A stretch of DNA of 31,240 nucleotides, taken from positions 19,609 to 50,848 of the IMG/VR virus record IMGVR_UViG_3300030390_001700. One strand, given 5' to 3'. Position 1 is the first letter of the stretch. Every line of letters begins with the position of its first letter. The translations under genes were made by a program, and so were the position numbers. The notes beneath the pieces were generated by a model that did no database searches, had not been told where the DNA came from, and saw only the letters and a program-made list of their open reading frames with translations. Shown in pieces: positions 11,686 through 27,069 of the stretch. Origin of the DNA: a virus.

Positions 11686-12693
11686 ATGCCGGTAGGTAAA
11701 AAGAAAAGTCCAGCTAGGTTTATAGGTGCTGTATCACTTGGTTTAGGTGTGATACAAGGTGCTACGTCTATTATTGGTGGTATACAAGAAAAGAAAAGAC
11801 TTAGAAAAGAAAACGAAAAAGCTCAGAAACAATATGAAGGTTTTAGAGATGATATTAATAAGTTAAAAATAACTAATCCTTATAAAAACTTAAATACTAG
11901 TTTTGAAAACACGTATGAAGACATGACTGTTAATCAAAAGCAGGCTCAGTTTCAAGCTAGACAAGGACAACAAGCAAGGGCAAACATGTTACAAAACTTA
12001 CAAGGTGCTGCTGGTGCTAGTGGTATTGCTGGTTTAGCTCAATCAATAGCAAATCAACAACAACAACAAACCGCTCAAATATCTGCAAACATAGGACAAC
12101 AAGAGTCTAGAAACCAATTATACCAAGCTAGAGGTGCAGACAGTGTTCAAAGAATGGAGCAAAACGCTAGACAAACAATAATGGGTGGTGAATATACAAG
12201 ACAGCAAAATGAAAACCAAAGACAGCTAAACTTAATGGAGTTAAAATCTGGTAGACAACAAGCTAAAAGAGAGTTTAGAACTTCTATGCAAGGTGCAAAC
12301 CAACAAATGTTAGGTGGTGTAGGTGATATAGTAGGTGCTGGACTACAAGGTTTTGCTTCCGGTGGTGGTTTTAGTAAAGATGGTTTTAAAATGGACACGT
12401 TTTTAGGTAGAGATAGTGTCAATACTTTTGGAGATGTAACTGAAATACTTAGTGATGGATCTAAATCAATCACTGGTGCTGGAGGACCAGTAGGAGATGT
12501 TGAAAAAGCAAAGTCTGTGTTTGACGGTATGCAAGCAGTGTCACCTTCTAGCTCAATAGATAGTCAAAAAAATATGCAACAACGAGCAAACCAACTACCA
12601 TCAGATCCAAATGATCCTTACTATCAGTCTGATGAATATTTTAATTCATTAGATCAAGGAATTATTCCTGTTAATATGAGCGGGAAATATTAA
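11686..12693 (+). CDS. T7 gp14-like internal virion (ejection) protein
   Basis: A 335-residue protein. A basic N-terminus (PVGKKKSPAR) precedes a glycine-rich hydrophobic segment, FIGAVSLGLGVIQGATSIIG, at residues 12-31. A charged helix (EKKRLRKENEKAQKQYEGF) and a long Gln/Ala-rich coiled-coil stretch follow to about 200. A second hydrophobic glycine-rich segment (LGGVGDIVGAGLQGFASGGG) lies near 206-226, and the C-terminus is Ser/Asp/Pro-rich and looks unstructured. This layout (membrane-active N-terminus, then Gln-rich helix) and its place first in a short-long-giant gene trio match the T7 gp14 ejectosome subunit that forms a pore in the outer membrane. Homology is not demonstrated; the role is inferred from architecture and order. 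Confidence 0.65.
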   Translation: MPVGKKKSPARFIGAVSLGLGVIQGATSIIGGIQEKKRLRKENEKAQKQYEGFRDDINKLKITNPYKNLNTSFENTYEDMTVNQKQAQFQARQGQQARANMLQNLQGAAGASGIAGLAQSIANQQQQQTAQISANIGQQESRNQLYQARGADSVQRMEQNARQTIMGGEYTRQQNENQRQLNLMELKSGRQQAKREFRTSMQGANQQMLGGVGDIVGAGLQGFASGGGFSKDGFKMDTFLGRDSVNTFGDVTEILSDGSKSITGAGGPVGDVEKAKSVFDGMQAVSPSSSIDSQKNMQQRANQLPSDPNDPYYQSDEYFNSLDQGIIPVNMSGKY

Positions 12694-12705: not shown

Positions 12706-14205
12706 ATGGCAATAGATTTTTACGAATTAGGAAGGAAAACAGGAGCTAAGACAGCTGAAGGTCAAAAAAGTAATTTTGAAGCTTTGACTGGTGGGTTGGT
12801 TAATACTGTTGACAGCATGATAAAAGCTAGTCAGCTTAAAACAGCAGCGTTGCAAGCAGCAATGCCTCAAGGTATAGCTATAGATAAAGTTCCAGAAGAA
12901 CTAAGGGCTCAAGCAACTGAGTTTTTAACTGCAAACAAAAAAGCATATACAGATGCTAGTAAAGTTCTTGCTTCAGGTATAAATCCACAAAGTCAAAGAT
13001 ATAGAAATGCTATTGAAACTATAAACGGCGTTAACACTAAGTTTGAAAACTTAAGCACATCTTTAGAAGGTGTTGCGTTAAAAAGAAAAGCTGCACTAGA
13101 TGATCCTGATGGTTACTCACCAAGCACAAGCAAAGAAGATAGACTTACTTGGGGTAATTTAAGTAATGGCGATTTATATTCTAACATGACGTTTAATGAT
13201 GATGGAACAGTGAACTACACTAACAGTAAAGGCGAGTCTAAGTCTTTTGCTGATTTTAATGTCACACCTCAAAGCTTTGAAGGTCAAAACACTTTCTTAG
13301 CGTTAAATGATAAATTTACTAGCGCAAAATACTCTGGCAAGTCTAATCAATGGAGTATGCATGCTGGTGAAGCAGAGGTTACCGTAAATGCTTTGTTCCA
13401 AAAATTAAAACCAGCAGGGCAAAAAGACATGATGATGGGTGATATTGATTACTTAGAAAAAACTACAGGATTTAAATCTGGAACAGATGAGTATGAAAAT
13501 GCTATTAATGGTATATTAGAAAATCCTAATGATGCCATCGCTGGTTACAAGCAGCATATGTTAAAAACTCTTGAAAACAATTATAATAAACAAACAGGGC
13601 CTAAAGGTAAAGAAGAGGGCAAAGGTGCTGGCGGTTTTACAGGTAGCCAACTTCCTGGACAAGGTTATGTTTCTGCTGAAACAAAAGCAGAGAATAGACT
13701 TAAAATAGATAACAGATCAACTTATGGAGACTACGATGGTTATTACGGTAACTACACGTATAGACCAGACACTGATGATTACACAATTGGTGAAGGTGAT
13801 GATATGGAAGTATTAACGCCATTTGAAGTTTCTAAAAGAGAAGGTGTTGCTAGACCTAACGAGACTGCAAAAGGTTTCAAACAAGTTAGTAAACCTAAAG
13901 TTTTATTTGGAACTGACGAAACGTTTTTCCAACAGACAGAAGAAGAGTTTATAACTAAGTTAGAGCAAAACTATGATATGAGTAGTTATATTGTTGGTGA
14001 GTCTCCGGATGGTATTTTACCAGGTATTTTTACAGACGACCCTTATGAAAGAGTTACAATATCAGATGCGGATGGGAATGCTCTTTTTAGTTTTAGAACT
14101 GATATTGATAATCCCGCTAAAAGAGTTGCTGAAGCAAAAAGATTTAAAAAATGGCTTGAAGACAATAATATTGAACCTAAGTCTACAATGCCTCTTCCAG
14201 CATAA
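12706..14205 (+). CDS. Second ejection-block protein (T7 gp15 position)
   Basis: A 499-residue soluble protein. The first 130 residues are helical and Ala/Lys-rich (FYELGRKTGAKTAEG, SMIKASQLKTAALQAAMPQG). Residues 150-340 are mixed and end in a Gly/Lys linker (KQTGPKGKEEGKGAGGFTGS). A Tyr/Gly/Asp patch (YGDYDGYYGNYTYRPD) and an acidic C-terminal domain follow. No catalytic motif is evident. It sits between the gp14-like and giant polyvalent genes, the place held by gp15 in T7-type ejectosomes, though it is shorter than T7 gp15. I do not recognise a family; a packaged internal protein is the best inference. The ATG follows AAAAAAATAATA with no Shine-Dalgarno. Confidence 0.6.
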   Translation: MAIDFYELGRKTGAKTAEGQKSNFEALTGGLVNTVDSMIKASQLKTAALQAAMPQGIAIDKVPEELRAQATEFLTANKKAYTDASKVLASGINPQSQRYRNAIETINGVNTKFENLSTSLEGVALKRKAALDDPDGYSPSTSKEDRLTWGNLSNGDLYSNMTFNDDGTVNYTNSKGESKSFADFNVTPQSFEGQNTFLALNDKFTSAKYSGKSNQWSMHAGEAEVTVNALFQKLKPAGQKDMMMGDIDYLEKTTGFKSGTDEYENAINGILENPNDAIAGYKQHMLKTLENNYNKQTGPKGKEEGKGAGGFTGSQLPGQGYVSAETKAENRLKIDNRSTYGDYDGYYGNYTYRPDTDDYTIGEGDDMEVLTPFEVSKREGVARPNETAKGFKQVSKPKVLFGTDETFFQQTEEEFITKLEQNYDMSSYIVGESPDGILPGIFTDDPYERVTISDADGNALFSFRTDIDNPAKRVAEAKRFKKWLEDNNIEPKSTMPLPA

Positions 14206-14219
14206 TAAAAATTTAATAA

Positions 14220-17200
14220 ATGCCTAATTACACTGTAGATAATAAAACTTTTACTGAAAAACAAGTTGTAGATCAAGCTGCTAAGCTAGGTGTTACTGTT
14301 GAAGCTTATCTAGCTAATACTGGTTTAAAACTTGAATTAGCTGAAGCAAATCAACAAGAACTACCAGAAGATAAAGGTTGGTTTGAAGACATGCTAACCG
14401 CAATTAGAGGTGGTAGTGCCGCTGGTGGTAGCGTAGGTGAGGCTTTTGACGTGTATAGACAAGGACGAGATATATCAGAGAAAGACTTACAAAACTTTAT
14501 TGAAGCCGCTAAAGCTATAGAAAATAACCCAGAAACTAACGAAGCTGCATCTTGGAGAAAAGATACAAAAAAACATGGTGGTGGTGCTTTAGGTGGATTT
14601 ATGAGTTTGTTAGAAAACCCTGGTTACTTTCCACAGTTTATAGCATCTTCTTTATCTACAATGGCTACTTCATTATTTGACTCAGAAGAAGTTGCTGCTT
14701 CAACAGCGGCTGGAGCTGGAGTTGGTGCTGCGGCAGGATCTACTACCGCTGCTTTAGCTGCTTCAATTGGTGGTCCAATTGGTACTGTTTTAGGTTATAT
14801 TGGTGGGGCTGGAGCTGGGGCTGTAGGTGGTGGTATGGCTGGTTTAGTTGGAGCTATGGAAACTGGATTAACTTTAACAGATTTATTAAGAGACGAACTA
14901 GGAGATAAAGAGTTTAATCAAAAAAATATTAGAGCTTTGTTAAACGACAAAGATGTAATGGACAGAGTTAAGTCTAGGTCTTTGGCTAGAGGACTTACTA
15001 TTGGCGCTGTAGAAGGTTTAACGTTTGGTTTGTCTAGAGGAATTGGTGGTAAAATTCTTGCAAGCGCAGCAACTAAAGGTGCTATTGGCTTATCAAAATC
15101 TGGTTTAAAAACAGGTGCTAGGGTTGCGGCAGCAACAACAGCTATAGAGTCGGTTGGTGGTGGTGGTGGTGAAGCTTTAGGTATGTTAGCAGCTGGTCAA
15201 GAGCTAGTAGGTGAAGAAATATTTTTAGAAGCAATAGGTGAAGCTAAAGGTGTTTTTAACACTTCTGATTTTGTTAGATCTGCATTAACTAAAAGATCTT
15301 ACAAGTTAAATAAAGAAAAAGTAAGCGCTGATAAAATAAGAGAAATTATAGAGAACCCAAATACATCTAATGCTGATTTAGCTAAGATGAATATAGAGGT
15401 AACTGGAGATAATACTTTTGATGATTTTGTAAAACGAAAACAAAACAATGCCGCTATAGACACTCAAATAGACGCAAGAATTACTGACAAAGCTGATAGA
15501 AAAAAATTAGTTGAATTAGAGCTTAAAAGAAGAAAAGCACAAGCCGATGTTAAAAAAGATGGTGCGTTTGAAGTTGTAGATGCTGCGGCAAATTTATTAG
15601 AAGTTGAATTAGAAATTAAAGCTCTTTTAAACAAATACGAAGGTGCGGTTGGTTTTGGTGAAACAACAGAAGCTAAAAACGTTGCTAAAACTATAAGAGA
15701 TATTTCGCTTAGTAAAACTATTGAGTTTTTGCAAAAAAATAAAAAGTTTGTAGGTAAAGATGTTGTTATTGCAGATAACGATGTTGATGCAAAAATTGCT
15801 TATGACAAAGCTGTTGAAGAGTACAACGCTAAAATAGATAGTGGAGAAATTAAAGGTAAAAAAATTGTTGAAGAATACTCTTCTACAGACGGTTTTATTT
15901 TAGGTGATGTTATTGTTATAAATAAAGATGTTGCTGGTAAAACAGGAGCAATAAACGTAGGTGCACACGAGCTATTACACGGTATAGTAGGCAAGCACAT
16001 GAAGAATTTAGACGCTGCGGGTAAAATAAAGTTAGGAAAAAGCTTTATGAACACTTTAACAAAAGAACAAGGTATTGCTGTTAGAAAAAGATTAAAATTA
16101 TACGGGCTAGAAGGTGATGCTGTTTTTGCTTCAGAAGAAATATTTACTGCTTTTTCAGATGCTATTACAAAAGGTGAAATTACTTTTGACGAAGGTGTTT
16201 TTAGTAAGTTAAAAAACATTATACAAGAAATACTTAGAAAAGTTGGTTATAAAAAAGAGTTTGAAAACGGTAGACAAGTTTATAATTTTTTAAAAGACTA
16301 TCAAAAAAGCGTTGAATCTGGTGGAGAGATAAGCTCAAGAGCTAAATCACTAGCTGGTGGTGGTACATACGCTATGGGTAGTCAAGAATCAAGATCAACA
16401 CCACTTGAAGCTATAAATAGCCTTTTACCAGGTAAAATTACAACGCAAGAAGATTACTACAAAGTACTTAATGACCCTAGAATAGCTAGCAAGGCTGGTG
16501 TTGAAAGAGTTTTAGACAACAGAGGAAAATTAGCGCCTGTTATAGAAGCTTATATAGTAAGCAAATCTACAAACTCTGATATGGCTGCGGAAAACATAAA
16601 ATCTGTTAAAAAAAGATTAGCTAACTTTGATCCAGCAGAAAAAAGAGCAGACGGCTCAACTGTTGGGCAAGAAGGTTTTGGTGAGTTTATATTTGCTAAT
16701 GCTAAATTTGGTAAGTTAGATGCTGCTAAAAATTTAGCTGTTAAAGCTGAAAAAACAAAAAGAGAAACAAGCATAGATACTGACGAGGCTAAGGAACTAG
16801 CAGAAACGTCTACATCTACAATAGAAGTAGAGGACAAAACAAAAGCAAGAGACTTAAAAGATTTTAACATTGAAATAGAGGACGGTCTTGTTGACGCTGA
16901 AATTATTGCTGAGGTTGAAGCTTTGTTACAAAAAAACCCAGATGATATTCAGCTTCAAATGGAAAAGTTAATATTAGGCCCTTTACGTAAGTCACTTAAC
17001 AATGTTTTTGGTAAAATAGGTAAAAGCAAAAAAACAGGCAAGGTTGAACCGTCACCTGAGTATGAAAGTCAGATTAGAAACGAATACCCCGAAATAGTTC
17101 AGAGTTTAGGTATAGAAACGATAAGAACAGCATACAAACCTTGGTTTGAAAGAAAAAAAGTACGTACAGAAAAATATAAAGGTGTTAGTCCTAGAACAGG

Positions 17201-20200
17201 TAAACCAACAAACTACGTGAAAGATGTTTTTGAAAACAAAACTAATAAACGTGAGTATATAAGATGGTTTTTAGAAGGTAAACCTGGTGTTTTAACAGAA
17301 AGAAGAACTGCTTTAATAAGACGTATAGCTAGAAGAAAAGCAAAAATAGCTATAGATAATTATATTGAAGCTAACTCTAAAGATCTAGGTAAAGTTGCTG
17401 AAGCTAAATTAAGAATTTTATCAAGAGCAATTGAAGATGTTCAAGTTGAAAAGAAAAGCTTTGACTCTGTTAAGTATAGCAAAGGATTTGAGCAAGAGTT
17501 TAATATGTTGTTTAGGAAATTAGAGCAACGTAAAAAAGGCGGTACTTGGCATTTTAAAAAAGAATTTGAGAAAGAAGCTATAGAAAGAGGATTAGTTGAC
17601 AGTAAAGGAAAAATAAAATCATTTCCTAACAAAGGCATAATCTACGAGCAAGCTTTTGCTGATTACTTTGTTAAAATGGCAAAAAGATTAAATATTAAAG
17701 GCTTCAAGGTAGAATCTTTTATGGCAAGTGAAAAAGGTGGTATGGCTGATTTTATTATGAGCTTTTTTGGTGACGTTGAAAATCATGAAATAAAAGCCTC
17801 AATGACTGCTTTTATGGGTAGCGTTTCTATCTCAAACTTTATTAACGGAAAACTAGAATTTGCAACAGATGTTCATAATGAAATGTTGAACGATCCTAAT
17901 TTTGACATGGATAAGTTTCAAAAAGGTTATATGAAATCAATAGACTTTGCAAACAAGCGTATTAGAGAGTTAAACTTAACAAGAGATAAAGATAAACAAT
18001 ACGCTGAAATAGATCCAAATGTTACTAGTGGTAAACCTCAATTTTTTCCAAAAGAAGTTTATAATGACAAAGACTTTCCTGTAAAAGTTTTTTATGTACT
18101 TGATGGAGATGCTAGCGTTATAGCAAGACACTATAAAGGTAAGGGTGTTAACTCAATTAGCTTTGTCAACACTGGAATAGATGGTGCTGGAGAGATGTCA
18201 TTTCGACTTAACGATGATTCTTTGTTAGAGCTTGAAATGCTAGACGCTGAAACAGTTACTAATTTTACTTTTAGAAACGGTGGAACTAAAATAGTTAATG
18301 GTGAAGAAATGATAGCTGTAAGTCTTGGTGTTCAGTTTAAAATAAAAAAGCTTAACAACAATACTAAAAACGCAATAGACATAACAGATGATGTAGGCTT
18401 TAAAAAAGCTGCAGCTAGACATATTTTTTCTAAATCACCTAAAGCTACACAAGCTTTAAGTAGCGCTGTTAACAATTCAAGGTCTGCTAACAACCCTACA
18501 AAAGGTATTACTATATTAGATTTTGATGACACACTGGCTACAAGTAAATCTTTAATTAGATACACAACTTTAGAAGGTGAAAAAGGAACATTAACACCAG
18601 AGCAGTACGCTAGTACATACCAAGACTTATTAGGTTTAGGATATAAATTTGATTTTTCAGAGTTTAATAAAGTTGTAGATGGTAAAATTGCACCGTTGTT
18701 TCAAAAAGCTTTAAAACTACAAAGTAAGTTTGGTTCTAAAAGTATGTTTGTTTTAACAGCTAGACCTGCCGAATCTGCTCCAGCTATATTTGCTTTCATA
18801 AAAGCTAATGGTTTAAACATACCTTTAGAAAACATAACAGGTTTAGCTAACTCTACATCTGAAGCTAAAGCATTGTGGGTTGCAGAAAAAGTTGGTGAAG
18901 GTTTTAACGATTTTTATTTTGCTGATGATGCATTGCAAAACGTGCAAGCAGTAGATAACATGTTAAATCAATTTGATGTTAAACGTAAGGTACAGCAAGC
19001 TAAAGTTAAGTTTAGTAAATCAACAATGAATGATAGATTTAACGATATACTTGAAAATCTTACAGGCATTGACTCTAACAAAAGATTTGATTTTATAAAA
19101 GGTAGAAAGCGTGGGCAAGGCAAAGGTAAGTTCAGGTTTTTTATACCACCATCACATGAAGACTTTGTAGGTTTGCTTTACAATTTTATGGGTAAAGGTA
19201 AATTAGGTGATGCTCACAGAGATTTTTTAGAAAAATTTTTAGTTAGACCTTTAAATAGAGCTAATAAAGAATATGACACAGCTAGGCAATCTGTGGCTAC
19301 GGATTATAAAAACTTGAACAAGCAAATGCCTGATGTTAAGAAAATGCTTATAAAGAAAACACCTGATGGCGACTTTACATATCAAGACGCTATAAGAGTT
19401 TACTTGTGGGACAAGCATGGTTATAATATACCTGGTTTAAGCCCTGTTGATCAAAAAAGCTTAGTTGAATTAGTTAACTCTGACCCAAGTTTAAAAAGTT
19501 ATGCTGAAAATGTAAACATAATATCTAAACAAAAAAAATATGTTGATCCTACAGATGGTTGGGATAGTGGAGATATACGTATGGATTTAGACGATGCTAC
19601 AGGTAGAATTGGTAGGGCTGAGTTTTTTGCAGAGTTTAGTGAAAACGCTGATATAATATTTTCTAAAGAAAATTTAAACAAAATAGAGGCTGGTTATGGT
19701 AAAGGTGTTAGAGAAGCTTTAGAAGATATGCTTTACAGAATTAAAACTGGTAGAAACAAACCTACTGGTCAAAGTGGTATGGTAAATACACTTATGAACT
19801 GGCTAAACGGCTCTGTTGGTTCTGTTATGTTTTTTAACATGAGATCTGCTTTGTTACAGCAAATGTCTATAGTAAATTATATAAACTTTGCTGATAACAA
19901 TATATTTGCTGTTGCTAAAGCTTTTGCTAATCAAAAACAATACTGGGCTGATTGGGCATTTATATTTAACTCTGACATGCTTAAGCAAAGAAGAGGTGGT
20001 ATTATGACAGACGTAAACGGTGCTGAACTTGCCGCTGATATGCGTAAATCTAAAAGTCCTCACAGATTTTTAATATCTAAACTATTAGAGCTAGGTTTTT
20101 TACCTACACAGATCGGTGATAACATTGCAATTGCAACTGGTGGTGCTTCTTATTACAGAAATAGAGTTAATACATATTTAAGACAAGGTTTAAGCAAGGC

Positions 20201-21095
20201 TGAAGCCGAAGCAAAAGCGTTTACAGATTTTCAAGACATAACACAGTCAACGCAGCAGTCAGCAAGACCTGATATGGTATCACAACAACAAGCATCTGTT
20301 ATTGGTAAAGTTATATTAAACTTTCAAAACGTAACTTCTCAGTTTAACAGGTTGGGTAAAAAAGCTTTTCAAGACATATACAATAGAAGAATATCAAAGC
20401 CCAACACAACTCAAATGCAAAGTGACATATCTAATGCTGCTAGAATAACTTATTACTTTGCTGTGCAAAACGCTATATTTTACACTTTACAAACAGCTTT
20501 ATTTGCTATGATGTTTGATGATGACGAAGAAGATGTTAATAATTTGTTTTTAAAGAAAAAAGAAAGATTAATAAATGGTAGTATTGACTCTGTTTTAAGA
20601 GGTACTGGTTTGTATGGTTCTGTTGTTGCTACGTTAAAAAATGTTGCTATTGCTTTTGCTAGACAAAGAGATGTTAATTACAATCCAGACGAAAGCGCTG
20701 TTATAGTAGAAGCTTTAAATCTTTCACCGGTACTAGGTATTAAAGCTAGAAAAATTGTAAACGCTGAAAAAACTTTAAACTACAATAAGAAAGTTATAGA
20801 CAATATGGAAGATATGGATATTGATAATCCTCAATGGTCAGCTGTAACAAACTATATAGAAGGTTTTACAAACCTACCTCTTAATAGAATTTACAATAAA
20901 ACTCAGAATGTTAGACAAGCTTTAAACAATGACCACAGCAGTTGGGAAAGAATGTTATTGTTTTTAGGTTGGAGTCAGTATAATCTTAACCTTACTAATG
21001 AAAAAATGGACAAGATTAAAGAAAACACAAAGAAAAATAAAAAAACTAAATACAAGCCAAAATACAAATCAAAATATAAATCAAAGTACAAGTAA
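14220..21095 (+). CDS. Giant polyvalent ejection protein: metallopeptidase, PD-(D/E)xK, HAD and LPD38-like domains
   Basis: A 2291-residue protein in the T7 gp16 position, probably packaged and ejected with the DNA. In order: a helical N-terminus; a glycine-zipper hydrophobic stretch at 158-222 likely to enter membranes; a zincin motif HELLH at 583-587, with Glu639/640 in SEEIFTAFSDA as the possible third ligand; a nuclease-like pattern with Glu1143, Asp1177 (GGMADFIM) and Glu1190-x-Lys1192 (NHEIKAS); a HAD phosphatase-like domain at about 1430-1595 (ILDFDDTLA at Asp1434/Asp1436, FVLTARP, lysines near 1550/1557, FADDALQN); then about 1840-2190 resembling large polyvalent protein-associated domain 38 (FFNMRSALLQQMS, DFQDITQSTQQSARPD, GKVILNFQNVTSQFNRL). 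The last 20 residues are a Lys/Tyr repeat (KYKPKYKSKYKSKYK) suited to DNA contact. Domain calls rest on visible motifs; activity is untested. Confidence 0.8.
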   Translation: MPNYTVDNKTFTEKQVVDQAAKLGVTVEAYLANTGLKLELAEANQQELPEDKGWFEDMLTAIRGGSAAGGSVGEAFDVYRQGRDISEKDLQNFIEAAKAIENNPETNEAASWRKDTKKHGGGALGGFMSLLENPGYFPQFIASSLSTMATSLFDSEEVAASTAAGAGVGAAAGSTTAALAASIGGPIGTVLGYIGGAGAGAVGGGMAGLVGAMETGLTLTDLLRDELGDKEFNQKNIRALLNDKDVMDRVKSRSLARGLTIGAVEGLTFGLSRGIGGKILASAATKGAIGLSKSGLKTGARVAAATTAIESVGGGGGEALGMLAAGQELVGEEIFLEAIGEAKGVFNTSDFVRSALTKRSYKLNKEKVSADKIREIIENPNTSNADLAKMNIEVTGDNTFDDFVKRKQNNAAIDTQIDARITDKADRKKLVELELKRRKAQADVKKDGAFEVVDAAANLLEVELEIKALLNKYEGAVGFGETTEAKNVAKTIRDISLSKTIEFLQKNKKFVGKDVVIADNDVDAKIAYDKAVEEYNAKIDSGEIKGKKIVEEYSSTDGFILGDVIVINKDVAGKTGAINVGAHELLHGIVGKHMKNLDAAGKIKLGKSFMNTLTKEQGIAVRKRLKLYGLEGDAVFASEEIFTAFSDAITKGEITFDEGVFSKLKNIIQEILRKVGYKKEFENGRQVYNFLKDYQKSVESGGEISSRAKSLAGGGTYAMGSQESRSTPLEAINSLLPGKITTQEDYYKVLNDPRIASKAGVERVLDNRGKLAPVIEAYIVSKSTNSDMAAENIKSVKKRLANFDPAEKRADGSTVGQEGFGEFIFANAKFGKLDAAKNLAVKAEKTKRETSIDTDEAKELAETSTSTIEVEDKTKARDLKDFNIEIEDGLVDAEIIAEVEALLQKNPDDIQLQMEKLILGPLRKSLNNVFGKIGKSKKTGKVEPSPEYESQIRNEYPEIVQSLGIETIRTAYKPWFERKKVRTEKYKGVSPRTGKPTNYVKDVFENKTNKREYIRWFLEGKPGVLTERRTALIRRIARRKAKIAIDNYIEANSKDLGKVAEAKLRILSRAIEDVQVEKKSFDSVKYSKGFEQEFNMLFRKLEQRKKGGTWHFKKEFEKEAIERGLVDSKGKIKSFPNKGIIYEQAFADYFVKMAKRLNIKGFKVESFMASEKGGMADFIMSFFGDVENHEIKASMTAFMGSVSISNFINGKLEFATDVHNEMLNDPNFDMDKFQKGYMKSIDFANKRIRELNLTRDKDKQYAEIDPNVTSGKPQFFPKEVYNDKDFPVKVFYVLDGDASVIARHYKGKGVNSISFVNTGIDGAGEMSFRLNDDSLLELEMLDAETVTNFTFRNGGTKIVNGEEMIAVSLGVQFKIKKLNNNTKNAIDITDDVGFKKAAARHIFSKSPKATQALSSAVNNSRSANNPTKGITILDFDDTLATSKSLIRYTTLEGEKGTLTPEQYASTYQDLLGLGYKFDFSEFNKVVDGKIAPLFQKALKLQSKFGSKSMFVLTARPAESAPAIFAFIKANGLNIPLENITGLANSTSEAKALWVAEKVGEGFNDFYFADDALQNVQAVDNMLNQFDVKRKVQQAKVKFSKSTMNDRFNDILENLTGIDSNKRFDFIKGRKRGQGKGKFRFFIPPSHEDFVGLLYNFMGKGKLGDAHRDFLEKFLVRPLNRANKEYDTARQSVATDYKNLNKQMPDVKKMLIKKTPDGDFTYQDAIRVYLWDKHGYNIPGLSPVDQKSLVELVNSDPSLKSYAENVNIISKQKKYVDPTDGWDSGDIRMDLDDATGRIGRAEFFAEFSENADIIFSKENLNKIEAGYGKGVREALEDMLYRIKTGRNKPTGQSGMVNTLMNWLNGSVGSVMFFNMRSALLQQMSIVNYINFADNNIFAVAKAFANQKQYWADWAFIFNSDMLKQRRGGIMTDVNGAELAADMRKSKSPHRFLISKLLELGFLPTQIGDNIAIATGGASYYRNRVNTYLRQGLSKAEAEAKAFTDFQDITQSTQQSARPDMVSQQQASVIGKVILNFQNVTSQFNRLGKKAFQDIYNRRISKPNTTQMQSDISNAARITYYFAVQNAIFYTLQTALFAMMFDDDEEDVNNLFLKKKERLINGSIDSVLRGTGLYGSVVATLKNVAIAFARQRDVNYNPDESAVIVEALNLSPVLGIKARKIVNAEKTLNYNKKVIDNMEDMDIDNPQWSAVTNYIEGFTNLPLNRIYNKTQNVRQALNNDHSSWERMLLFLGWSQYNLNLTNEKMDKIKENTKKNKKTKYKPKYKSKYKSKYK

Positions 21096-22443: not shown

Positions 22444-22770
22444 ATGAAAAAATTATTACTAATACTTTTTCTAGCATTTGGTTTAAGTGCTAGCTCACAA
22501 ATCGTGGTTACACATTTTAATGCTGAATGGAACGATCCTAATAAAGTAGCATATATAGGTAAGCTTACTGGTTGTGAATTAGTATATGTAGACATAGCAA
22601 AATCACCAAAGCTACAAGAAAAACATGAAATAATTATAGTACCTACCGTGGTAATATATAAAGATGGTGAAGAAGTAAAAAGATTTCAGGCAGACATATC
22701 TTTTAGTATGAAAGCTACTAGAAAAGATATGCAAGCGGTAATTGATGAGTTATTGATGAGTGACTTTTAG
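22444..22770 (+). CDS. Exported thioredoxin-fold protein lacking the CxxC cysteines
   Basis: A 108-residue protein. A signal peptide (KKLLLILFLAFGLSASSQ) ends at about residue 19, after SQ. The mature part reads as a minimal thioredoxin fold: VVTHFNAEWNDPNK where thioredoxins have (F)(A)(E/P)WCGPCK, then CELVYVDI, and the cis-proline strand IIIVPTVVIYKDGEEVKRF with Pro67. Both active-site cysteines are replaced (Asn30 and Asn33), leaving one cysteine, Cys44. It is therefore probably not a disulfide oxidoreductase but a binding or chaperone-like variant acting in the periplasm. Its end overlaps the next gene by 11 bases, so the pair is co-translated. Confidence 0.75.
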   Translation: MKKLLLILFLAFGLSASSQIVVTHFNAEWNDPNKVAYIGKLTGCELVYVDIAKSPKLQEKHEIIIVPTVVIYKDGEEVKRFQADISFSMKATRKDMQAVIDELLMSDF

Positions 22771-26287: not shown

Positions 26288-26614
26288 TTGGCAACTTTTT
26301 TTCACAACATAACCACAACATTAACTAAAGATTTATTAGCTGTAGGTGATAACGTTAGTAACTTAAAGTCTATATCTATAGCTAATGTTGACTCTAGTAA
26401 TGAAGCTAAGGTTGATCTTTTTCTAAATAAAGGTGCTGATAATTTTTATATATTAAAAGGTATTAGTATACCGGTGCAAAACACACTGCTATTAGATCAA
26501 GGTGATAATATAGCTTTTAACAATGGTGCTAGTGGTTTTTCTATGAGAATACAGGTAGACAATGGTAGCGGAGTAGCTACTGCGGTAGATGTGATTTTAA
26601 AAAGAGGTGCGTAG
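26288..26614 (+). CDS. Small virion-type protein with TTG start
   Basis: A 108-residue protein starting at TTG 26288, three bases after the previous stop; no in-frame ATG lies nearby, and TTG gives the N-terminus ATFFHNITTTLTKDLLAVGD. It resembles the two preceding proteins in size and in an N-terminal T/L-rich strand, but shares little clear sequence. Segments ISIPVQNTLLLDQGDNIAF and GASGFSMRIQVDNGSG look like a beta sandwich. It overlaps the peptidase gene by one base (TAGTG). Likely a small structural protein; function unknown. Confidence 0.6.
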   Translation: MATFFHNITTTLTKDLLAVGDNVSNLKSISIANVDSSNEAKVDLFLNKGADNFYILKGISIPVQNTLLLDQGDNIAFNNGASGFSMRIQVDNGSGVATAVDVILKRGA

Positions 26615-27069
26615 TGATAAGTAAACACATAAGTTATAAAGAAGGTGTGTATAGCAGAACAGCTATGCGCTGTGATATTAAAAACAATCCTAATGCAGAG
26701 CAAATGCAAGGTATGGTTAATATCGCAGAAGAAGTTTTTGAACCTTTACGTATGTGGGTAGGTGGACCTATAAAAATTAATAGTTTTTTTAGATCACCAG
26801 AATTAAACAAAGCAATTGGTGGTAGTGGTAAGTCACAGCATTGTCATGGGCAAGCCATTGATCTTGACGATACTTTTGGTAGAGCTACTAACGCTGAAAT
26901 GTTTGAGTTTATAAAACAAAATTTAGACTTTGATCAAATGATATGGGAGTTTGGTGATGAAGATAATCCCGACTGGGTGCATGTTAGCTATGTATCACCA
27001 GAACAAAACAGAAAAAGATGCTTAAACGCATACAAAGAAAAAGGCAAAACAAAATATAAAATAATATAA
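26614..27069 (+). CDS. M15-type zinc peptidase, probable endolysin
   Basis: A 151-residue protein of the peptidase M15 (D-Ala-D-Ala carboxypeptidase-like) type, expected to cut peptidoglycan cross-links. The metal motif S-x-H-x-x-G-x-A-x-D is present as SQHCHGQAIDLD (His76, Asp83), and the third ligand is His123 in DWVHVSY; Glu112 in IWEFG may be the catalytic base. The N-terminus includes INSFFRSPELN, also typical of the family. It starts at GTG 26614 overlapping the previous stop by one base. There is no signal peptide, so it would need a holin, or else be a virion-associated lysin. It sits among fibre genes rather than in a lysis cassette. Confidence 0.85.
   Translation: MISKHISYKEGVYSRTAMRCDIKNNPNAEQMQGMVNIAEEVFEPLRMWVGGPIKINSFFRSPELNKAIGGSGKSQHCHGQAIDLDDTFGRATNAEMFEFIKQNLDFDQMIWEFGDEDNPDWVHVSYVSPEQNRKRCLNAYKEKGKTKYKII

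Follow-up and report, generated by a model that had tools for sequence, protein, structure and literature searches.

A giant polyvalent-type phage protein with exchangeable enzyme modules and a short motif at its module junctions

Results

Comparison of the 2291-residue protein encoded in the window (the whole stretch of 31,240 nucleotides analysed here, bases 19609-50848 of the 50.8-kb virus record IMGVR_UViG_3300030390_001700) with its relatives indicated that modules are exchanged against a constant C-terminal end and that module junctions are marked by a short motif, [FY]-S-[KR]-[ST]. With moderate confidence, the protein is interpreted as a polyvalent ejection protein with exchangeable enzyme modules that is cut at the junctions before or after delivery; its presence in the virion, its injection, its cutting and its substrates are what we infer. 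Proteins of the polyvalent kind were already known, and the present comparison adds exchangeable cargo and marked junctions to an earlier sequence-only reading of this DNA. The features are listed in Table 1.

Table 1. Position of the giant protein, its neighbouring genes and its predicted modules in the window.
Feature	Position in window	Strand	Basis
335-aa gene upstream, first of three ejection-type genes	11686..12693	+	synteny with phi38:1 gp99
499-aa gene adjoining upstream	12706..14205	+	synteny with phi38:1 gp100
Polyvalent ejection-type giant protein, 2291 aa	14220..21095	+	single open frame; 81 distinct full or near-full relatives, 1225-3383 aa
N-terminal domain, residues 57-328, glycine-zipper segment ~160-215	14388..15203	+	PHROG_32588 match; own profile
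Zincin-like metallopeptidase domain, residues 563-701, HELLH 583-587, third ligand E640	15906..16322	+	H, H, E invariant in 76 sequences
Module 'midW', residues 773-858; other versions sigma-70 region-2-like	16536..16793	+	hhalign to sigB (92%), sigC (73%)
Helical module 'mid2W', residues 891-1088	16890..17483	+	own profile in 22/81 members
YSKG, residues 1086-1089, degenerate motif, mid2/nuclease junction	17475..17486	+	resembles [FY]S[KR][ST]
Putative PD-(D/E)xK nuclease module, ~residues 1105-1253, E1143, D1177, E1190, K1192; exchangeable slot	17532..17978	+	four invariant columns; predicted alpha-beta-beta-beta
FSKS, residues 1403-1406, slot/HAD junction	18426..18437	+	family-wide enrichment at junctions; background codon usage
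HAD phosphatase domain, residues 1416-1600	18465..19019	+	motifs in 80/81 members; fold match T4 Pnkp 3'-phosphatase
FSKS, residues 1598-1601, HAD/C-terminal domain junction	19011..19022	+	33 members with motif at HAD/C-terminal junction
Constant C-terminal domain, residues 1605-2289, helical	19032..21086	+	identity to relatives; BFVD fold matches

Gene context and family of the giant protein

Sequence relationships place the source as a tailed marine phage related to flavobacterial phages, and the host is probably a flavobacterium, an assignment made by phage relationship only. On re-reading of the sequence, the giant protein was confirmed as one open frame, and every residue number named earlier was correct. 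The gene order is that of gp97-gp101 of Cellulophaga phage phi38:1, with the final three of these genes (201, 549 and 1691 aa) standing where the window has genes of 335, 499 and 2291 aa; in nearly all relatives, the position of the 499-aa gene is held by a gene of 431-992 aa. An 1830-aa virion protein encoded upstream matches structural proteins of the Cellulophaga phages phi38:1, phi40:1 and phi46:3 and of Flavobacterium elemo-group phages, and the remainder of the record encodes a terminase, a portal, a probable capsid protein, GroES and GroEL. As deposited, phi38:1 gp101 is annotated 'structural protein'. The positionally equivalent protein of Flavobacterium phage elemo (3694 aa) is labelled likewise and carries a homologous zincin (E 2.4e-9 with our own zincin profile). 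From the gene order and the structural labels in phi38:1 and elemo, the gene slot is assigned to ejection or cargo proteins, as in crAss001 gp45-gp50 (PMC10172136), which is a positional argument; the placement in the 'T7 gp16 position' proposed earlier is backed by the gene order with phi38:1 gp97-gp101 as a comparison of gene position alone.

Viral contigs were searched in two rounds, giving 17 loci and then at least 247 related places. From the latter, 80 were retained, and after removal of duplicates 81 giant proteins formed the family set. A tblastn search of phage records with the whole protein (E 1e-5) gave no match. Among 84,980 species genomes, a single matching contig was found, the 6.6-kb contig L102 within a Maricaulis MAG, which is probably a phage contig binned into that MAG: all other relatives come from viral contigs, and those in culture have flavobacteria as hosts. 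No Pfam family was recognised in the 2291-aa protein, and its sole PHROG match was phrog_32588 (unknown function; E 1.2e-46, residues 54-423). Profiles made for each part gave the domain order as a variable N-terminus, the zincin, a short module (four versions), a helical module (several versions), the slot, the HAD domain and the constant C-terminus. The predicted model covers residues 1100-2291 at a modest mean pLDDT of 63.

Terminal domains and relation to polyvalent proteins

The profile of the N-terminal domain also matched a 3932-aa LPD38-bearing polyvalent protein (E 2.6e-14). The glycine zipper named in the sequence-only reading is present, but the hydrophobicity of the segment is weak (best 19-residue Kyte-Doolittle mean 1.37). 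In one of 27 N-terminal extensions of relatives (alignment A10), a phage lysozyme domain was detected (E 7e-15), which fits an entry protein.

Identity of the C-terminal domain to that of the window was 46-88% in 16 relatives and at least 56% in 80 loci, and its model matched, in BFVD, phage proteins annotated ART-PolyVal-like or 'large polyvalent protein associated'. The LPD38-like character ascribed to it earlier was not borne out, since Pfam found no LPD domain in 17 members and hhalign against two LPD38 proteins gave E 0.2-0.5; Pfam profile and hhalign thus give no support for placing the C-terminus in LPD38 (PF18857). The protein combines at least two unrelated enzymatic domains, including a zincin, and its gene lies among late virion genes, with terminase, portal, capsid and tail genes upstream. 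By architecture, gene position, BFVD fold matches and the shared N-terminal domain, it fits the broad polyvalent class, so that a polyvalent-type protein with zincin, PD-(D/E)xK and HAD modules in the ejection slot is retained and LPD38 membership is dropped.

Conserved catalytic residues of the enzyme modules

All three catalytic patterns (zincin, HAD and PD-(D/E)xK) exceed chance in the sequence comparison, and the domain identities, which rest on conserved catalytic residues and for the HAD domain also on the predicted fold, are well supported. PDB profile searches with the zincin, HAD, PD-(D/E)xK and EH-module alignments gave no significant match.

In the zincin, where an HELLH motif had been reported, the catalytic residues are kept across relatives (H583, H587 and E640 in 76 of 76 sequences, E584 in 74). 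An HExxH helix with a glutamate as third zinc ligand on a later helix was found, the helical context being that of a relative's model, and the alignment matched the HExxH of aureolysin weakly (E 0.07).

For the PD-(D/E)xK module, an alignment of 25 sequences with 16-38% identity (mean 24%) left E1143, D1177, E1190 and K1192 as the sole invariant columns, which is the expected PD-(D/E)xK catalytic set; the pattern D1177, E1190-x-K1192 noted earlier (E1190-I-K1192 in the sequence) was thus found invariant in these three residues, with E1143 in addition. In the predicted model, E1143 lies on a helix, and D1177 and E1190-K1192 lie on or beside consecutive strands, so that residues and predicted elements together give the helix Glu and the Asp and Glu-x-Lys on adjacent strands typical of this class. 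A fold search with the model returned no PDB match for the nuclease part, which was barely probed because the HAD domain filled the match list.

The HAD motifs of the 2291-aa protein are DFDDT at 1434, LTARP at 1512 and DD at 1569-1570. T1513, A1514, R1515, K1550, D1570 and N1574 were present in 80 of 80 sequences and D1569 in 79, and motif I, DxDxT, could be recognised in every one of the 80, with a single doubtful case. The earlier HAD assignment, from Asp1434/Asp1436 to Asp1569/Asp1570, therefore gained conservation among relatives and a predicted fold that also matches HADs (Z up to 11.2), and motifs and fold together give the DxDxT, T/S, K and DD set in a Rossmann-like core. An apparent loss of the nucleophile in eight members was discarded as mostly an alignment artefact from insertions, DxDxT being present. 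Insertions of ~140-200 residues between motifs I and II, resembling a cap domain, were seen in L036, L040, L041, L046, L055, L059, L062, L091 and L014, and the distant relative L017 (L017:8249-15382) has unrelated sequence in place of the HAD domain.

Against the PDB, the best match of the HAD model was 5uj0, the T4 Pnkp 3'-phosphatase (Z 11.2, rmsd 2.6 over 125 residues), followed by 2ia5 and 1ltq (both Z 10.6) and by other HADs at 9.9 or below. T4 Pnkp thus holds ranks 1-3 of the list, just about one Z unit over other HADs. Sequence similarity to T4 Pnkp is confined to motif I, and R1515, the Arg two residues past the Thr/Ser of motif II, is present in 80 of 80 members. The HAD fold and the motif order DxD, [ST]-x-R, K, DD are common to both, while the phage protein differs from T4 polynucleotide kinase/3'-phosphatase in having no kinase domain. 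HADs like that of T4 Pnkp act on nucleic-acid ends, and the likeness of the model, with its small fold margin, suggests nucleic-acid end repair.

Exchange of modules against the constant C-terminus

Among the 81 members, the slot ahead of the HAD domain holds the PD-(D/E)xK module in 28, an 'EH' module with an invariant Glu-His in 49, and other or unclear content in 4. One of the four, L083, has a PD-(D/E)xK-like pattern on reading, and L058 and L064 hold a third sequence type common to both. The EH module was considered as an HNH nuclease but was left unassigned, since the model puts the E-H at a helix start after two strands, without clear further ligands. The nuclease claim made earlier thus stands for the presence of a PD-(D/E)xK module and falls for a fixed activity, since the slot is exchangeable and at least one other module can take the place of this one.

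Parsimony on a tree of the constant C-terminus counted at least 18 switches of the slot, 32 of the short module and 37 of the helical module; the tree came from a quick search, and these counts depend on it, but near-identical pairs do not. In one such pair, L014 and L015, the C-termini are 98% and the N-termini 80% identical, and the slots differ, PD-(D/E)xK in one and EH in the other. Similarly, the window protein and L016 have 88% identity in the C-terminus against 24% in the cargo.

A motif at the module junctions

The motif [FY]-S-[KR]-[ST] occurs in 132 copies in the 81 proteins, compared with 15 in shuffled sequences. In the stretch from zincin to HAD (the cargo), 57 copies with 54 distinct flanks were found against 4.7 expected, although only about half of the cargo regions (35 of 77) have a strict copy. 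Only 12 of 127 copies lie in module interiors, which make up 64% of residues; this depletion is partly circular, modules having been delimited by conservation, but the enrichment of the motif itself is not. Codons at the motif, those of serine (both TCN and AGY) included, follow background usage, which argues that the motif is selected as protein and rules out a DNA recombination site. Neither phi38:1 gp101 nor the other large virion proteins tested from the window contain it. The motif was also considered as a general feature of polyvalent proteins or related phages, and this was rejected, with single copies at most in phi38:1, phi46:3, elemo and two LPD38 proteins.

The simplest reading of the sequence pattern is that the motif is a processing site, and the processing is probably done by the protein's own zincin. 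The zincins of polyvalent proteins have been proposed to cut these proteins into working units (Iyer et al. 2017, PMC5512222), and the same paper describes P1 DdrB as processed and the N4 virion RNA polymerase as packaged uncut despite its zincin. Given the short conserved motif at the junctions between modules, and the existing proposal of such a role for zincins of this kind, processing of its own polyprotein is a better-supported role for the zincin than the cleavage of defence proteins suggested earlier. The targets named in the sequence-only reading, defence proteins and rival DNA, are conjectural.

A possible sigma-70-like module

The module that follows the zincin resembles, in several relatives, sigma-70 region 2 by sequence. 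In the model of L013 (residues 690-1705), the module region matched the sigma-70 structure 6ca0 with Z 5.8 over 90 residues, and further matches were SigI6 (Z 4.9 but rmsd 19.6) and a Thermus sigma factor (Z 4.0). By hhalign against 185 mostly E. coli ORFs, the four E. coli sigma factors ranked 1, 3, 8 and 34 for version A (random chance 1e-4), 3, 4, 79 and 145 for version C, and 12, 19, 72 and 74 for the weaker version B. The noise floor of single-sequence hhalign is about E 0.01, and the HAD alignment gave one chance match at 0.00075. Pfam and PDB profile searches gave no sigma-70 match for the module, and the window's own version, midW, has no direct sigma match and is linked solely via the sigB and sigC versions, so that the sigma-70 region 2 identity is regarded as a lead.

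Discussion

Under the favoured interpretation, the constant C-terminal domain of ~690 residues, probably serving packaging and passage out of the capsid, and the glycine-zipper N-terminal domain would together carry the exchangeable enzyme modules. The chain would be packed in the virion and exit with the DNA. Either before it is packed or once it has entered the cell, it would be cut at the [FY]-S-[KR]-[ST] junctions, with its own zincin as the probable protease. Cutting would free the nuclease (PD-(D/E)xK here, the EH module in most relatives) and also the T4-Pnkp-like HAD phosphatase; the substrates of both in the freshly infected cell may be nucleic acid or nucleotides. A version in which the protein is a polyprotein with exchangeable warheads, the constant domain delivering nuclease, phosphatase and sigma-like module and its own zincin releasing the parts at an F-S-[KR]-[ST] site, is held only tentatively.

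The enzymes might instead serve phage assembly and DNA handling, the zincin as maturation protease and the nuclease and HAD tidying DNA ends at packaging or at entry, with no host target. The gene belongs to the late virion cluster, the genes searched include no recognisable prohead protease apart from it, and the fold match to T4 Pnkp, taken with its established activity, would suit an enzyme of nucleic-acid ends. Such housekeeping predicts conserved enzymes, however, and the slot switches unrelated modules beside C-termini up to 98% identical, which is expected of cargo under diversifying selection; this explanation is held to be rather unlikely. It is unlikely that the junction motif is an unfolding, threading or linker signal for passage through portal and tail, with a zincin that targets host proteins. 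The location of the motif in linkers would agree with this, as would the partial unfolding on ejection proposed for crAss001 cargo proteins (PMC10172136) and the uncut packaging of the N4 enzyme (PMC5512222); but four residues conserved as protein with free codon choice suit protein recognition over a mechanical linker, and the window's other large virion proteins and phi38:1 gp101 lack the motif. It is very improbable that this is a large ejection-channel protein in which most of the catalytic modules have degenerated into structural remnants: the very low identity of the nuclease module (16-38%) and the missing HAD domain of L017 would be in keeping with decay, but in each of the three enzymes it is precisely the catalytic residues that do not vary, which would not be seen in decayed domains.

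The protein shares with polyvalent proteins, as described in PMC5512222, the giant chain, the zincin hub with unrelated enzymes and the late virion cluster; it differs in having no LPD domain recognisable by sequence, and the words 'haloacid' and 'phosphatase' are absent from the main text of that paper. A constant C-terminus with a switching nuclease slot and a repeated junction motif is not described for polyvalent proteins in its available text. The same paper makes the set wider than the temperate phages and conjugative elements named in the sequence-only reading, since it includes N4-type virion RNA polymerase and a Roseovarius podovirus. The N4 enzyme as presented there is likewise a giant injected podovirus protein with a zincin and a helical injection segment, but no polymerase was recognised in the present phage protein, which has nuclease and HAD modules instead. 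The virion of crAss001 carries the cargo proteins gp45-gp50 (PMC10172136), and as in these and in T7 gp14/gp15/gp16, the genes here follow the tail genes with the giant proteins last; the likeness is positional, the window's giant protein being an enzyme collection and not a transglycosylase channel or RNA polymerase. The MuF polymorphic toxins of temperate phages (PMC5576092) also join a constant delivery part to a variable toxic or enzymatic part, but the exchange here is mid-chain and the phage has no lysogeny signs among the genes searched.

If the favoured interpretation is true, these phages would, like bacterial polymorphic toxins, keep one end of the entry protein constant for delivery and change its armament by exchanging the enzyme modules attached to it. 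The proposal that polyvalent-protein zincins free individual domains would become testable, with the junction motif as a concrete candidate cleavage site, and the at least 247 related places in viral contigs would form a large natural set of alternative modules, with host defences among their possible targets.

Other genes

A PADLOC run gave no match. Chaperonin-like proteins are encoded by the phage, GroEL-like at L019:4909-6474 and GroES-like at L019:11542-12120. In the giant protein of elemo (L021:24917-36001), a DUF3293 domain (E 9e-13) lies immediately ahead of the zincin. A small protein with a signal-like start at 22444-22770 of the window reads as a thioredoxin fold without the CxxC pair, and the product of 26614-27069 reads as an M15-type D-Ala-D-Ala carboxypeptidase or endolysin, the comparable place in elemo having a gene so annotated.
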